From NCBI RefSeq assembly GCF_001854225.1, contig NZ_CP015208.1, forward strand, positions 186,001 to 250,000: a stretch of 64,000 nt of DNA, given 5' to 3'. Of this stretch, positions 17,051-35,506 are shown piece by piece (the stretch's first letter is position 1; the number at the start of each line of letters is the position of its first letter). The translations under genes and the position numbers were made by a program. Under the pieces are notes generated by a model. That model worked only from the letters and a program-made list of their open reading frames with translations. It had not been told where the DNA came from and ran no database searches. The stretch is from Candidatus Rhodoluna planktonica (GTDB lineage Bacteria > Actinomycetota > Actinomycetes > Actinomycetales > Microbacteriaceae).

Positions 17051-18193
17051 ATGTCTCAATTTGAAACCCGCGCAATCCACACCGCTCAACACCCAGATCG
17101 CAACAACGGTGCTGTGATTCCACCTATTTACATGACCTCGACTCACCGCCAAAATGCAGTGGGCGATTTGGCTGAAGGGTACGAATACAACCGCGGTGGC
17201 AACCCGACCCGCGACGCGCTGCAAGAGGCTTTGGCTTCACTCGAGGGTGGCCGATTTGGTTTCAGCTTTTCTTCTGGGTTGGCAGCTGAAGATGCGGTCA
17301 TCCGAGCCACTATGACTGCCGGCGATCATGCCATTTTGGCTAACGACTTATACGGTGGTAGTTTTCGCATGTTCAATCGCGTGCACAAGCCTGCCGGCAT
17401 CGATTTCGACATTGTCGATTTAAACGACGAGGATGCCCTGCGCGCCGCGTTCAAGCCAGGTAAAACCAAGCTGGTTTGGATCGAAACCCCAAGCAACCCG
17501 ATGATGACAATTTTCGACATCAACAAAGTTTCACGCATCGCTCACGAGCACGGTGCCTTGGCGGTTGTCGACAACACCTTCGCAACCCCATACCTGCAGC
17601 GCCCACTTGAATTGGGTGCCGATATTGTGGTGCACTCGACGACCAAATATCTTGGCGGACACAGTGACATTCTCGGCGGCGCGGTAATCCTCAATGATGG
17701 TGAGGTAGCCGACAAAATTCGCTTCATCCAGTTTGCTGTTGGTGCAGTTTCAAGTGCCTTTGACGCTTGGCTGACCCACCGCTCGCTCAAGACTTTGGCG
17801 CTACGCATGCGAGCACACTGTGCCAACGCGCAGGTAGTGGCCGAGTTTTTTGACGGCCATCCAAAGATTGAGCAGGTTTACTACCCTGGCCTGCCAGCAC
17901 ACCCAGGTCACGAGCTGGCTAAAAAACAGATGCACGGCTTTGGTGGAATGGTCAGCGTCAGGCTCAAGGATGGCGCGGCTGCCAAGCGTCTTGCCGAGTC
18001 GACCAAACTATTCACCTTGGCTGAAAGCCTTGGCGGTGTTGAGTCGCTGGTAAACCACCCGGCTGAAATGACTCACGCTTCGGCCGCTAATAGTCCAATC
18101 GAGGTCGGCCCAGAAATCGTTCGTTTCTCGGTTGGCGTTGAGCACATCGATGACCTACTGGCCGATTTAGAGCAGGCGCTGTCGCGAGTTTAA
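17051..18193 (+). CDS. Cystathionine gamma-lyase / gamma-synthase family protein
   Basis: The 380-aa Cys/Met-metabolism PLP enzyme has the lysine K199 in VVHSTTKYLGGHSD, the YNRGGNPTRDALQ N-terminal active-site segment, and D174 in VVDNTFATPYLQRP near the cofactor. With cystathionine beta-synthase just upstream, the pair most likely runs reverse transsulfuration (homocysteine to cysteine), so gamma-lyase is favoured. Sequence alone does not exclude gamma-synthase (MetB). The promoter and operator for the next genes lie directly behind the stop. Confidence 0.88.
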   Translation: MSQFETRAIHTAQHPDRNNGAVIPPIYMTSTHRQNAVGDLAEGYEYNRGGNPTRDALQEALASLEGGRFGFSFSSGLAAEDAVIRATMTAGDHAILANDLYGGSFRMFNRVHKPAGIDFDIVDLNDEDALRAAFKPGKTKLVWIETPSNPMMTIFDINKVSRIAHEHGALAVVDNTFATPYLQRPLELGADIVVHSTTKYLGGHSDILGGAVILNDGEVADKIRFIQFAVGAVSSAFDAWLTHRSLKTLALRMRAHCANAQVVAEFFDGHPKIEQVYYPGLPAHPGHELAKKQMHGFGGMVSVRLKDGAAAKRLAESTKLFTLAESLGGVESLVNHPAEMTHASAANSPIEVGPEIVRFSVGVEHIDDLLADLEQALSRV

Positions 18194-18197
18194 TAAT

Positions 18198-18227
18198 TTG
18201 ACCCGCAGATTCTACGTTTTGTAGAAT
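18198..18227 (+). promoter_or_regulatory. Promoter with palindromic operator for the copper chaperone/DyP genes
   Basis: The -35 TTGACC (18198-18203) and -10 TAGAAT (18222-18227) are 18 bp apart. A perfect inverted repeat, ATTCTAC (18209-18215) and GTAGAAT (18221-18227) with a 5-bp centre, covers the spacer and the whole -10 box. That is the ideal position for a repressor site. A metal or redox regulator is plausible from the downstream genes but is inferred. Confidence 0.65.
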
Positions 18228-18261
18228 AGAACTGTCGAGCACTTAATTGTCAAAGGAAATC

Positions 18262-18750
18262 ATGAAAAAGTTTGCTCTGTTCGCTGCGGCTTCAGCACTA
18301 GTTTTGGCAGCATCGGGCTGCAGTGCAGCTACTGAGGCACATCCCGAAGAAATGCACGCCGACAACGGTTGGGTTCGTGCCTATGAAATGACAGCTATGC
18401 CTGGTGGCATGACTGGCGCCTTCGCAGAAATCACCAACCACACCAACGCTGACGTCACCCTAGTTGGTGCATCCAGCTCGATTGCCAACATGGTCGAGGT
18501 TCACGAAGTGGTTTCGGTAGATGGCGAAATGAAGATGCGACCTAAAGAGGGCGGCATTGTGATTCCTGCTGGTGAAACCGTCACTCTTGAACCGGGTGGC
18601 TTGCACATCATGCTGATGGACACCACCGCGGCAATTCTTGAGGGTGATGAAATTACCTTGACTCTAGATTTTGACGGCGCTGAAGATCTGACTGTAACTT
18701 GGCCAGCAAAAAGCGCAGCAGCTGGCGACGAGGAATACCAGAGCAAATAG
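18262..18750 (+). CDS. Exported PCu(A)C-type copper chaperone lipoprotein
   Basis: The 162-aa protein begins with a lipoprotein signal (MKKFALFAAASALVL, lipobox AASGC). The cupredoxin-like domain has the Met/His pattern of PCu(A)C proteins: a His-Met rich start (MVEVHEVV), GEMKMRP, then GGLHIMLMD. These bind Cu(I) outside the membrane and deliver it to cytochrome oxidase or protect against free copper. I choose ATG 18262, with AAAGGA just upstream, instead of TTG 18247. The DyP gene follows after 11 nt with an overlapping AGGAGA site, so the two are co-expressed. Confidence 0.9.
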   Translation: MKKFALFAAASALVLAASGCSAATEAHPEEMHADNGWVRAYEMTAMPGGMTGAFAEITNHTNADVTLVGASSSIANMVEVHEVVSVDGEMKMRPKEGGIVIPAGETVTLEPGGLHIMLMDTTAAILEGDEITLTLDFDGAEDLTVTWPAKSAAAGDEEYQSK

Positions 18751-18761
18751 GAGATAAAACT

Positions 18762-19994
18762 TTGAGCAAGATCAGTAGACGAGGGTTTCTGTTCGGCGGC
18801 GCTGCCGCCACGGGGGCTCTCGTCTCTGCATCTGCCGGAGCAGCTGTTGGTGCGAGCCTTGGTGCTGAGGCTGCAACCGAAGCTGCGAACAAGGCGAATC
18901 TCACCGCGGTTTTGAAGCGGCGCGAGCGATTTTTTGGTCAACACCAAAACGGCATCGAAACTGAACTGCAAACATTTACAAATTTTGTGGCCTTCGACCT
19001 GAAGCCAGAAACCGATGCCGCCGCGGCAGCGCGCTGGTTCAAATTAATTACCGACGACATTGCCCGTCTCAGCGTTGGCGAAGCACCTTTGGCTGATCCA
19101 ACACCGCAGTTGGCTATGGGTCCAGCCAGATTCACCGCCACTTTGGCCGTCGGTCCAGGATTCTTCGACAAGCTAGGTTTGGCTGACAAAAAGCCGACGG
19201 GTTTTGAGCAGTTGCCAGCCTTTAACGTCGACCAGCTTCGCGAAGAATATTCCTACGGTGATGTGTTGTTGCACATCTCTGCGGATGACCCCATCATCCT
19301 CAGTCATGGTGTTCGCTCGCTGGTTCGAGACAGTGTTGGTTTTGCTAAGGTCCGATACTCGCAACAGGGGTTTTCTAACGCGCAAGGGGTTGTCCCCGGC
19401 GGTGTTCGCCAGCGAAACCTGATGGGGCAGGTTGATGGCACCGATAATCCCGAAATTGGCTCATCCGATTTCAACAACATCGTCTGGGTCGAAAACGGCC
19501 CAGACTGGTTAATCGGTGGCACATTTCTGGTTTTCCGTCGTATTGCGATGCAGTTGGGAACCTGGGATGCACTCGGTCGAACCGACAAAGAATTGGTCAT
19601 CGGTCGAAATTTGCAGAATGGTGCCCCACTGGGCAAGCAAAACGAAAACGATCCGATCGACTTTGATGCGGTTGATGCCAACGGACTTAAATTGATTCCA
19701 GAATTCGCCCACATTAGGCGCGCCCACGCTACAAATCCGACAGAGCGAATTTTTCGCCGGCCGTTCAATTATGAGGTTGGGGTTACCCCCGATGGCGAAC
19801 CGGATGTTGGCTTGCTGTGGACGGCCTATCAGCGCGACATTTCGACCCAGTTTTTGCCAATTCAAAAAAGACTCGATCAACTTGACCTGCTGAATAAATG
19901 GACAGTCCCGATTGGATCTGCAGTCTGGGCTGTGCTTCCCGGGGTGGAACAGTCGGCAAACGGCGATTACCTAGGTAAAAAACTTTTCCAATAA
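18762..19994 (+). CDS. Tat-exported Dyp-type heme peroxidase (EfeB-like)
   Basis: The roughly 410-aa peroxidase starts at TTG 18762 with a clear AGGAGA site and a twin-arginine signal (SRRGFLFG, hydrophobic Ala-rich stretch after it). The GxxDG motif is present as GQVDGTDNPEIG, near residue 215. A conserved His region (EFAHIRRAHATNP) and the arginine-rich RIFRRPFNYE are the expected heme ligand and distal Arg areas. Such enzymes use H2O2 outside the membrane; the EfeB branch helps take iron from heme. No EfeU or EfeO gene is adjacent, and pairing with a copper chaperone points to metal or oxidative stress. Confidence 0.92.
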   Translation: MSKISRRGFLFGGAAATGALVSASAGAAVGASLGAEAATEAANKANLTAVLKRRERFFGQHQNGIETELQTFTNFVAFDLKPETDAAAAARWFKLITDDIARLSVGEAPLADPTPQLAMGPARFTATLAVGPGFFDKLGLADKKPTGFEQLPAFNVDQLREEYSYGDVLLHISADDPIILSHGVRSLVRDSVGFAKVRYSQQGFSNAQGVVPGGVRQRNLMGQVDGTDNPEIGSSDFNNIVWVENGPDWLIGGTFLVFRRIAMQLGTWDALGRTDKELVIGRNLQNGAPLGKQNENDPIDFDAVDANGLKLIPEFAHIRRAHATNPTERIFRRPFNYEVGVTPDGEPDVGLLWTAYQRDISTQFLPIQKRLDQLDLLNKWTVPIGSAVWAVLPGVEQSANGDYLGKKLFQ

Positions 19995-20005: not shown

Positions 20006-20012
20006 TGACATG

Positions 20013-21224
20013 ATGTCGACTACAACCATTACCCAGCGTCAGCGTTGGAAATTTATTTTTCTCATTGGTGGATTACAGGCTTTGCAGCCTTTTTCACTCG
20101 ACCCTTATCTACCATCGGGTCCGATCATTGCTCGAGATTTCGCCGTCGACAATTCACTGATTCAACTAACCCTCAGTGCGCTAACCGTGGGATTTGCTAT
20201 TGGCCAACTTGTAGCCGGGCCGCTTAGCGACGCCATCGGCAGACGCAAGCCGCTGCTGTTTGCATCCACCCTTTATGTTCTGGCCAGCTATCTAGTTTTC
20301 ATTGCCCCAAGTATGGAGTTCTTCTTTGCAGCACGACTGCTGCAGGGAATGTCTGGTGCGGCAGCTCTGGTTGTCGGCAACGCAATTATTCGCGATCTTT
20401 ATGAAGGTCTGCCGATGCTAAAGATGATGGGCCGTGTGCTGCTGATTCAAGCATCAGCCTGGTTCATCGGCCCGTTCGCCGGTTCACAACTATTGGTAAT
20501 CATGGACTGGCGGGGAGTGAGCCTAATTCTTGGTTGCTACGCGGTATTCATGCTAATTGCTTCATTTATGTTTTTGACCGAAACACTTCACCGGGACAAT
20601 CGTCGCGATACCGTTTTCGCCGGGATGCTGAAGCGCTTCGCCTATGTTTTACACGATCGAATTTATGTCGGATTGCTGCTGGTGCAGATCATGGTTGGAA
20701 TCGGGCTTTGGGCCTATCTCAGCGCAATGCCTTTTGTTTTCACCCAGCAATTCGGGTTGGCTCCAGAACAGTACGGCTTGCTTTTGACCCTGAACTCGGT
20801 TGGTGCCTACATCGGCGTTCAACTCTCTTCTAAGCTGGCCCAGTACATCCCCGCTCAGTGGCTGCTGGTTGGTGCCTTGTCGATGTCGCTGATTGTCGGT
20901 GCAATCTTGACTCTGATTTCTAACACCCAGCCGCCGCTGTGGTTGGTTGCCGGTCTAATTTGGCTATTCCTCGTTGCCTTCGGTTTGACCGTCACCCCAA
21001 TTGGAGCGCTATCGTTGGCACCCCACCCAAACGAGGCCGGTACTGCCGCCTCGCTAATGCTGGTCCTGGGCTCTCTGGCAACATCGGCGGCCGGTCCGCT
21101 CTATGCAGCACTTCCAAAAGAAACCGCCTTCGGTGTTGGTCTAACCATGGTGGCGGCCCATCTGATTTCATTAACCGTAATGTTTACTGTGGTTAGGCCT
21201 AAGTCGGTTCCGGCCCTTACCTAA
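20013..21224 (+). CDS. MFS drug-efflux transporter, Bcr/CflA family
   Basis: The roughly 403-aa protein has twelve predicted membrane helices. The MFS motif A is visible as GPLSDAIGRRKPLLFASTLY between helices 2 and 3, and LQGMSGAAALVVGNAIIRDLY in helices 4-5 is typical of the Bcr/CflA group. The N-terminal LDPYLPSGPIIARDF loop is also characteristic. These are proton-driven exporters of drugs or metabolites such as sulfonamides or bicyclomycin in other species. The substrate here is not known. An uncertain start at ATG 20010 would add one residue. Confidence 0.88.
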   Translation: MSTTTITQRQRWKFIFLIGGLQALQPFSLDPYLPSGPIIARDFAVDNSLIQLTLSALTVGFAIGQLVAGPLSDAIGRRKPLLFASTLYVLASYLVFIAPSMEFFFAARLLQGMSGAAALVVGNAIIRDLYEGLPMLKMMGRVLLIQASAWFIGPFAGSQLLVIMDWRGVSLILGCYAVFMLIASFMFLTETLHRDNRRDTVFAGMLKRFAYVLHDRIYVGLLLVQIMVGIGLWAYLSAMPFVFTQQFGLAPEQYGLLLTLNSVGAYIGVQLSSKLAQYIPAQWLLVGALSMSLIVGAILTLISNTQPPLWLVAGLIWLFLVAFGLTVTPIGALSLAPHPNEAGTAASLMLVLGSLATSAAGPLYAALPKETAFGVGLTMVAAHLISLTVMFTVVRPKSVPALT

Positions 21225-33907: not shown

Positions 33908-35506
33908 GTGCGCTTTAAGAAATTACGTACGGCAGTTGTTGCGGTTGCAGCAGTTGCGGCGTTGACCCTGACCGGCTGTGCAGCAGCTGCGCCAGCAGGC
34001 AACGACAACATCATTACGGTTAACGGCAGCGAGCCGCAAAACCCAATCATCCCAACCAACACCAACGAGGTAGGTGGCGGTCTAATCGCCGACAACATCT
34101 TCGCCGGTTTGGTTTACTATGACGCGAGTGGCGCACCAGTTAACGACATGGCTGAGTCAATCACCTCAGAAGACAACCAGACTTGGAACATCAAGATCAA
34201 GAGCGGTTGGAAGTTCACCAATGGTGAAGAAGTCACCGCCGAATCATTTGTGAAGGCCTGGAACTACGGCGCATTGCTAAGCAATGCTCAGTTGAACAGC
34301 TACTTCTTTGAGGCTATCGAGGGCTTCAGCTACGACGTAGATTCAGAACTAACCGGCCTAACCGTAGTTAGCCCAACTGAATTCACCGTAAAGCTAACCT
34401 CAGCGCAGTCTGACTTCCCACTTCGTTTGGGCTACACCGCATTCATGCCGCTACCTTCAGTCTTCTACGACGACCCAGCCGCATTCGGTGAGAACCCAAT
34501 CGGAAACGGCCCTTACATGCTTGACGGCGAAGGTGCCTGGAAGCACAACGTTGAAATCACCTTGGTCAAGAACCCTGACTACAAGGGTGGCCGTGCTCCG
34601 CTAAACGGTGGTCTAAAGATTGTGTTCTACGCATCGTATGACGCTGCCTACGCAGACCTACTAGCCGACAACCTAGATGTTTTGACCGGTATCCCAGATT
34701 CAGCCTTGAAGACTTACAAGGCCGACCTAGGTGACCGCGCCATCGATCAGGGTGCAGCTATCTTCCAGTCGATCACCATCCCAGAGCGATTGGCTCACTT
34801 CTCGGGTGAAGAGGGTAAGTTGCGTCGTGCAGCTATCTCGATGGCAATCAACCGCCAAGAGATCATCGACGTTATCTTCAACGGAACTCGTAAGGCAGCT
34901 CGCGACTTCACTTCACCAGTAATTGCTGGTTGGAGCGACAAGCTTGCAGGTTCGGAAGTTCTTGACTTCAACCCAGAGAAGGCGAAAGAGCTTTGGGCAC
35001 AGGCTGACGCAATTTCACCTTGGACCGGTTCGTTCCAGGTTGGCTACAACGCCGACGGCTCACACCAGGCCTGGACCGAGGCTGTTGCAAACAGCATCAA
35101 GAACACTCTTGGTATCGATGCATCAACCAACCCAGTTCCAACCTTCTCTGAGTTCCGCACGCAGATCACCTCTGACACCATCCAGACCGCATTCCGCACT
35201 GGCTGGCAGGCAGACTACCCAGCATTGGCTAACTTCCTAGCTCCGCTATACAAAACCAATGCAGGTGCAAACGATGGCGATTACTCAAACCCAGAAGTAG
35301 ACGCACTGTTCGACAAGGGCGACCAGGCGGCCTCGCTTGAAGAAGCAAACGGCTACTACCAGCAGGCACAGGAGATCATGCTTCAGGATCTTCCAGTACT
35401 GCCCATGTGGTACGGAATTGCCAACGGTGGTTACTCAACCAAGGTCGAGGGCGTGAAGTTTGGTTGGAACTCTGTTCCACTACTACACGAGATCTTGAAG
35501 AAGTAA
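33908..35506 (+). CDS. oppA: ABC transporter substrate-binding lipoprotein, peptide/oligosaccharide family 5
   Basis: The 532-aa exported protein has a basic N-terminus, a hydrophobic signal and lipobox LTGC, so it is lipid-anchored outside the membrane. The mature part has the family-5 (OppA/DppA) pattern: GSEPQNPIIPTNTNEVGGG near the N-terminus, WNIKIKSGWKFTNGEEVTAESFVKAWNY, and a C-terminal domain ending VKFGWNSVPLLHEILKK. It binds peptides, or in some actinobacteria oligosaccharides. Start is GTG 33908 with a GGGAGGAAAA site. A strong hairpin lies between it and oppB, which often raises binding-protein dosage over the membrane parts. Confidence 0.93.
   Translation: MRFKKLRTAVVAVAAVAALTLTGCAAAAPAGNDNIITVNGSEPQNPIIPTNTNEVGGGLIADNIFAGLVYYDASGAPVNDMAESITSEDNQTWNIKIKSGWKFTNGEEVTAESFVKAWNYGALLSNAQLNSYFFEAIEGFSYDVDSELTGLTVVSPTEFTVKLTSAQSDFPLRLGYTAFMPLPSVFYDDPAAFGENPIGNGPYMLDGEGAWKHNVEITLVKNPDYKGGRAPLNGGLKIVFYASYDAAYADLLADNLDVLTGIPDSALKTYKADLGDRAIDQGAAIFQSITIPERLAHFSGEEGKLRRAAISMAINRQEIIDVIFNGTRKAARDFTSPVIAGWSDKLAGSEVLDFNPEKAKELWAQADAISPWTGSFQVGYNADGSHQAWTEAVANSIKNTLGIDASTNPVPTFSEFRTQITSDTIQTAFRTGWQADYPALANFLAPLYKTNAGANDGDYSNPEVDALFDKGDQAASLEEANGYYQQAQEIMLQDLPVLPMWYGIANGGYSTKVEGVKFGWNSVPLLHEILKK

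Follow-up and report, generated by a model that had tools for sequence, protein, structure and literature searches.

A conserved palindrome over the -10 box of a copper chaperone-peroxidase promoter in Candidatus Rhodoluna planktonica as a candidate operator of a BlaI/MecI-family repressor

RESULTS

The PCuAC-DyP locus and its promoter

The stretch of DNA analysed here (the window) covers 64,000 nucleotides, positions 186001 to 250000 of contig C1 in the 1.42-Mb genome of Candidatus Rhodoluna planktonica. A palindrome lies in it just upstream of two genes encoding a copper chaperone and a peroxidase, where the following features were recognized (window coordinates):

17051-18193, plus strand: upstream Cys/Met-metabolism PLP enzyme (PF01053), outside the putative regulated unit
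18198-18203, plus strand: -35 hexamer TTGACC (sequence and consensus scan; with the -10 hexamer 10/12 consensus matches, 18-bp spacer)
18209-18227, no strand: candidate BlaI operator ATTCTAC-GTTTT-GTAGAAT, core TTCTAC-N5-GTAGAA at 18210-18226 (sequence and comparison)
18222-18227, plus strand: -10 hexamer TAGAAT, within the right arm of the operator (sequence and consensus scan)
18252-18259, plus strand: ribosome-binding-site-like AAAGGAAA (by eye)
18262-18750, plus strand: PCu(A)C copper chaperone, predicted lipoprotein with ASGC near the N-terminus (PF04314; lipobox by eye)
18762-19994, plus strand: DyP-type peroxidase with twin-arginine signal SRRGFLFGG and a TTG start after AGGAG (PF04261, PF20628; start and signal by eye)

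The first-pass annotation had read the downstream pair as a copper chaperone and a heme peroxidase, and Pfam confirmed both assignments. The PCuAC protein matched PF04314 with an E-value of 5.5e-36 (123.2 bits, cut-off 29.4), while the peroxidase, besides PF04261 and PF20628, exceeded the cut-off of TIGR01413 and reached 363 bits against TIGR01412 (deferrochelatase/peroxidase), under the cut-off of 428. A gene for an MFS transporter (20010-21224) directly follows the DyP gene. The sequence and coordinates of the palindrome were likewise as first described, with the left arm ATTCTAC at 18209-18215, the gap GTTTT at 18216-18220 and the right arm GTAGAAT at 18221-18227; since this right arm contains the whole hexamer TAGAAT, the placement of the operator over the -10 box also stands. 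The consensus scan of a 301-bp region returned two promoter-like sites against 0.3 expected, the second one lying on the minus strand, on the mirror TAGAAT of the same palindrome.

Perfect 7-bp arms around a 5-bp gap occur five times in the 64-kb window, against a mean of 3.7 in 20 mononucleotide shuffles. The palindrome alone, without comparison, is not beyond chance, and the case for its being more than that is the comparative evidence.

A BlaI-type repressor encoded outside the window

The annotation had further proposed a metal- or peroxide-responsive repressor encoded somewhere outside the window. Its location was well guessed, for a blaI gene (C1:24003-24359, 119 aa) was found about 180 kb from the palindrome. 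The product matches PF03965 (penicillinase repressor) with an E-value of 1e-18 and 68.2 bits, above the cut-off of 22.6. With a profile of 16 homologues, the nearest chain among solved structures was 2g9w, which we take to be M. tuberculosis BlaI, followed by S. aureus BlaI and MecI; weak matches to Fur winged-helix chains in the PDB reflect a shared fold. The model of CopY/TcrY repressors, TIGR02698, gave 27.1 bits, far under its cut-off of 121.95. Cysteine is absent from 10 of the 16 aligned BlaI proteins, that of this organism included, and C-x-C from all 16, so the protein lacks the Cys-X-Cys copper site of CopY. Phe102 is invariant in the 16 proteins and aligns with the Phe at P1' of the site where BlaR1 cleaves S. 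aureus BlaI, a cut reported to fall between Asn101 and Phe102 (PMC9834060).

The gene next after blaI encodes a candidate protease:

L018:421-1113 (contig C1, about 23.3-24.0 kb), minus strand: BlaR-like membrane protein, 231 aa

A BlaR-like neighbour was found at 16 of the 17 blaI loci of the genus, the contig ending at the 17th (L050), and the HExxH motif with its downstream Glu is invariant in 18 BlaR-like homologues. In Pfam the protein of this organism had no match to PF05569 (M56) and gave only a sub-threshold M48 match, and that of one relative reached 17.9 bits against PF05569, with a cut-off of 31. Its AlphaFold model (pLDDT 82.8) retrieved S. aureus BlaR1 chains as the six best Foldseek matches, modest ones with a best E-value of 5e-4, only one below 0.001, a TM-score of about 0.43 and an rmsd of 15-16 A. 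The assignment of the modelled protein to the BlaR1 family therefore follows from the rank of these matches and a loose superposition. Membrane helices and metalloprotease fill the 231 residues, without an extracellular penicillin-binding sensor domain, and on this model the protein may act like the protease half of BlaR1 and not as a beta-lactam receptor. After ELAA its C-terminus diverges from those of the homologues, a near-invariant Asp being replaced by Lys and the usual ending missing, with no continuation of that ending in any other frame. As read from its sequence, this BlaR may be weakened or altered, and its activity is therefore uncertain.

Judged by these family memberships, the regulator missing from the window is a BlaI with a BlaR1-like neighbour. 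The wording of the first proposal is not supported by this identification: the repressor belongs to the BlaI/MecI family and has neither a cysteine nor a Cys-X-Cys copper site, and its gene adjoins that of a BlaR1-like protease, so that the signal probably enters via the protease rather than through direct binding of metal or peroxide by the repressor.

The operator word in this genome

The exact 14-base word occurs at a single place in the 1.42-Mb genome. Allowing up to one mismatch in the 12 core bases added two further places. One of them, C1:24367-24383, lies with one mismatch on the blaI promoter and covers its -10 box; the absence of a second genomic site, one half of what would have refuted the first-pass proposal, is thus not borne out. 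The other, C1:343885-343901, carries C at position 7 and G at position 11, without the conserved purine/pyrimidine pair described below; it lies 46 bp before a 373-aa ORF which by eye resembles phosphoserine aminotransferase. With up to two mismatches, the genome holds 30 matches against 70 for the reversed pattern; given this lack of enrichment, any regulon in this organism must be small. One such two-mismatch match (window 34625-34641) lies inside a 532-aa ORF.

The closest match near cydA of this genome has three mismatches and lies 25 bp before its ORF, and copC has no match up to three mismatches. A two-mismatch site at C1:810817-810833 (L141) lies 54 nt before ctaC (shuffle P 0.014), its right half being a shared -10-like box. 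In the ctaC promoters of 10 other genomes with blaI, within a comparison of 30 of 60 ctaC loci, the best matches had 4-6 mismatches, and one genome without blaI reached three (rank test P 0.10). As the site is not conserved in those 10 genomes, we rejected it as evidence for ctaC as a third target and rate that role a weak possibility.

Co-occurrence of the word with blaI

Of the 67 genomes of the genus, 15 yielded a PCuAC gene, 11 of them together with blaI and four without it. The word was present in the PCuAC promoter of all 11 genomes with blaI (eight exact, two with one mismatch and one with two) and within 200 bp in none of the four without it, among which G001 is single-contig and G005 and G017 have distant PCuAC homologues only (36 and 30% identity). 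Two exact copies lie in the PCuAC promoter of G026, and two imperfect ones in those of G056 and G022. In four relatives (L003, L005, L006, L007) TTGCAT, TTGCAG or TTGCAA stands 16-17 bp before TAGAAT, on which the right arm again lies. The 17 blaI genes found in the genus each have the word 24 nt upstream of their ATG, in exact form at four, with one mismatch at 10 and with two at three. At every one of these promoters TAGAAT falls within the right arm and stops 6 nt short of the ATG, an arrangement that would be expected if the transcript were leaderless and its -10 box lay in the operator.

Of all 67 genomes of the genus, 16 have blaI, and the 12 in which the exact word appeared all belong to these 16 (Fisher 3e-10, kinship ignored); the reversed pattern, used as control, showed no link (8/16 against 25/51). 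The family gave a similar picture. The word occurs exactly in 171 of 398 genomes, and 168 of these 171 have a PF03965 match below E 1e-8, a limit chosen in this analysis, which is passed by 229 of the 398 genomes and by 61 of the 227 without the word (Fisher 4e-55, kinship ignored). When the first listed genome of each of 78 genera was taken, PF03965 was present in 31 of 32 with the site and in 16 of 46 without it (P 6e-9), the reversed pattern giving P 0.74. Many blaI-type genes thus lack the exact word, which is no surprise in a family that has further members, but the word itself hardly occurs without such genes. The three family genomes with the site and no PF03965 match are G071, G374 and G441. 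In G374 and G441 (L110 and L133) the word lies 160-205 bp before an MFS transporter gene, the product of which in L133 is 35% identical to the MFS transporter at 20010-21224 of the window; in G374 the word is also near a BlaR-like gene, and the blaI of that genome may have been missed.

We also fetched blaI loci by protein. In the best 80 of 453, some from genomes also present in the genus and family counts, the word was found within 300 bp upstream in exact form 59 times, with one mismatch 18 times and with two mismatches three times, whereas the reversed pattern came within two mismatches at one locus and had 3-6 at the other 79. A TAC...GTA dyad on the gene's own promoter, within two mismatches of the word, is accordingly common to 17/17 blaI genes of the genus and to 80/80 of these best loci. 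Microbacterium, Cryobacterium, Leifsonia, Agromyces, Arthrobacter, Nakamurella, Pseudonocardia and Stackebrandtia are all represented, which implies that the word is old. A protease-like gene lies near blaI in 76 of the best 80 loci; in the remaining four, from MAGs (L188, L190, L195, L196), blaI and an operator with one mismatch are directly followed by dcd and no BlaR-like gene was found in the fetched stretch, so the neighbouring protease is not universal. In view of this distribution, the palindrome is very probably a genuine binding site of a BlaI-type repressor encoded elsewhere in the genome.

A block consisting of an ATG22-like MFS gene, blaI, blaR and dcd (dCTP deaminase) recurs in L018, L049, L178, L186 and other loci. 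PCuAC-DyP or YcnI-CopC is located within it or next to it in some relatives, whereas PCuAC-DyP of the window genome lies 180 kb away.

Genes beside the word in relatives

A census of 117 distinct exact sites, drawn from mixed loci of genomes with many sites so that its proportions are not unbiased, placed 105 within 420 bp of a gene start matching our reference set. The neighbours were blaI (66), cydA (58, all in a region shared with blaI), PCuAC (17), ycnI (8) and a flavohaemoglobin (hmp) reference (6, three of them weak, with 26-28% identity), followed by ctaC, atpB, pta, a molybdopterin-domain/MFS pair and an HTH regulator with two each. Among the best 80 of 453 blaI loci, cydA is divergent from blaI in 39. 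The other 12 sites had no such match. Pfam was run on 10 ORFs adjoining otherwise unassigned sites, which include MFS, MarR, ECF sigma, PdxS-type SOR/SNZ, Lnt, amidase and glycosyl hydrolase 3 proteins; none of the 10 is a beta-lactamase or transpeptidase, a partial check given that the reference set contains no beta-lactamase or PBP.

Position 7 is a purine and position 11 a pyrimidine in 89% of the 117 sites, and positions -1 and 19 are A or T in 86%. Conservation at positions that the search did not select supports one binding specificity. The window operator conforms at positions 7, 11 and 19 and departs at -1, where it has G. Operators are doubled or stand three to four in a row at a spacing of about 23-26 bp in several loci (L066-L071, L115, L118, L122, L040, L042); such clusters occupy the interval from blaI to cydA or precede ycnI, an arrangement that would suit several dimers bound next to one another.

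DISCUSSION

Our comparative data make it highly likely that the palindrome serves as operator for a repressor of the BlaI/MecI family, which would cover the -10 box of the PCuAC-DyP promoter and probably be relieved by BlaR-type proteolysis. A BlaI dimer would bind TTCTAC-R-N3-Y-GTAGAA and shut the promoter off, and it would likewise cover the -10 box of its own blaI-blaR operon. Once activated, the BlaR1-like membrane zinc metalloprotease would cleave BlaI, the cut probably falling just ahead of the conserved Phe102, and expression of PCuAC, DyP and blaI-blaR would be derepressed.

Systems of this kind are already known. The site recognized by S. aureus BlaI is TAC-ATAT-GTA, with a gap of four bases between TAC and GTA, whereas the gap here is five; BlaR1-BlaI of S. 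aureus (and MecR1-MecI) shares with the present pair the repressor family, the membrane gluzincin, here by predicted fold, and the conserved P1' Phe, but not the penicillin-sensor domain. M. tuberculosis BlaI/BlaR (Rv1846c/Rv1845c) provides, with 2g9w, the solved chain nearest in sequence to the present repressor, and differs from the present system in its targets, which here in the window are a copper chaperone and a DyP peroxidase. In Clostridium thermocellum, BlaI_0696 is described as binding inverted repeats five nucleotides apart, with autoregulation, blaR1 genes in the operon and paired sites, all of them features met here, but its half-site is GTCTAT and its regulon one of signalling genes, with no copper or respiratory genes named in the part of the article consulted (PMC8457756). 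New here are PCuAC-DyP and YcnI-CopC as putative targets, together with the operator word and how widely it occurs. Titles and abstract openings of open-licence PMC articles yielded no report of BlaI control of PCuAC or YcnI-CopC, which does not prove that none exists.

With regard to the signal, we tentatively suggest as a real possibility that the trigger is a haem-copper cytochrome oxidase whose copper supply fails or whose turnover is impaired, since relatives have this operator next to copper-handling genes and the gene of the copper-free cytochrome bd. Against it counts that in this genome cydA and copC lack the word within two mismatches and that the ctaC site is not conserved. The results published on M. 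tuberculosis would fit a respiratory or copper input. There, the cytochrome bd and ATP synthase promoters are described as bound by BlaI, with Sala 2009 cited as the source (PMC5473688), and copper deprivation of a chalkophore mutant induced cydABDC, qcrABC and the ATP synthase, in an article whose main text does not contain the term 'BlaI' (PMC12140626). SigC is reported to prevent copper starvation in the same species (PMC7924339), and sigC has been assigned to the BlaI regulon (PMC8265638).

A copper-excess switch of the CopY/CopR kind, with a repressor that binds Cu(I) and releases DNA at high copper and a chaperone serving detoxification, is an unlikely alternative explanation for the operator. 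CopY belongs to the same family as BlaI, uses TAC..GTA half-sites within a similar palindrome, RNYKACANNYGTMRNY (PMC7253601), and shares with the present system a copper-related target, here a copper protein. TIGR02698 also matches BlaI weakly (27 bits), but far under the CopY cut-off, the TAC-GTA gap is five bases and not four, and a protease-like gene lies near blaI at 76 of the best 80 of 453 loci. CopY also carries C-terminal Cys-X-Cys motifs (PMC7253601), the lack of which in all 16 BlaI proteins argues against a copper site of this type.

We consider quite unlikely a response to beta-lactams or cell-wall stress as in Staphylococcus, with BlaR sensing the antibiotic or wall damage and BlaI controlling the response. 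Both the regulator and the protease are of the BlaI/BlaR1 families, and M. tuberculosis BlaI also controls blaC (PMC5473688); yet the 231-aa protease has only its membrane and metalloprotease parts, and the lack of a sensor domain argues against direct beta-lactam sensing. The neighbours recognized at the sites are moreover respiratory and copper genes, as named by a reference set without beta-lactamase or PBP, and Pfam, in the partial check above, named none of the 10 ORFs beside unmatched sites as either.

An iron or peroxide repressor of the Fur/PerR/IdeR type, along the lines first suggested, would suit a haem protein such as DyP and could be brought into connection with the weak matches of BlaI to Fur chains and with the reported membership of M. 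tuberculosis blaI in the iron (IdeR) regulon (PMC7924339). It is nevertheless very improbable, given that the word tracks blaI in 168 of 171 family genomes and lies on every blaI promoter of the genus. A terminator or mRNA hairpin at the end of the PLP-enzyme gene, or a mere chance palindrome, is hardly credible: the palindrome does lie 15 nt from the stop codon of that gene and can fold (z -2.5, 3/200 shuffles equally good), and palindromes of this size do arise by chance, but no terminator-like site was found in the 301-bp region, the word was seen in none of the PCuAC genomes without blaI, and it persists behind different upstream genes in the relatives' loci listed and so does not belong to the PLP-enzyme gene.

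If BlaI is indeed the repressor of PCuAC-DyP, a lone palindrome becomes a testable circuit whose regulator, protease and operator word can all be named, and the word provides a sequence key present in 171 of the 398 family genomes searched. Operons for copper chaperones and copper-binding proteins (PCuAC-DyP, YcnI-CopC) would be added to the targets of a repressor family that is known from beta-lactamase control and from cytochrome bd and ATP synthase, and the circuit suggests what a sensor-less actinobacterial BlaR might watch. More speculatively, sensor-less BlaR/BlaI might act across the Actinomycetes as a general switch that answers failure of the cytochrome aa3 branch, copper starvation included, where BlaR would sense the state of the oxidase, the membrane or periplasmic copper and cut BlaI, and the shared word would turn on copper delivery by PCuAC and YcnI-CopC, the copper-free oxidase encoded by cydAB and, in certain lineages, also ctaC, atp, hmp and pta. 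Such a switch, if real, would supply the input that sensor-less BlaR is missing and tie the family of beta-lactamase repressors to the nutritional use of copper. In some larger Microbacteriaceae genomes the exact word also stands before pta (L114, L116), before an MFS gene with a molybdopterin-domain gene (L113) and before a flavohaemoglobin gene (L111, L083); these sites at acetate, nitrate-transport-like and nitric-oxide genes hint at a wider respiratory regulon.
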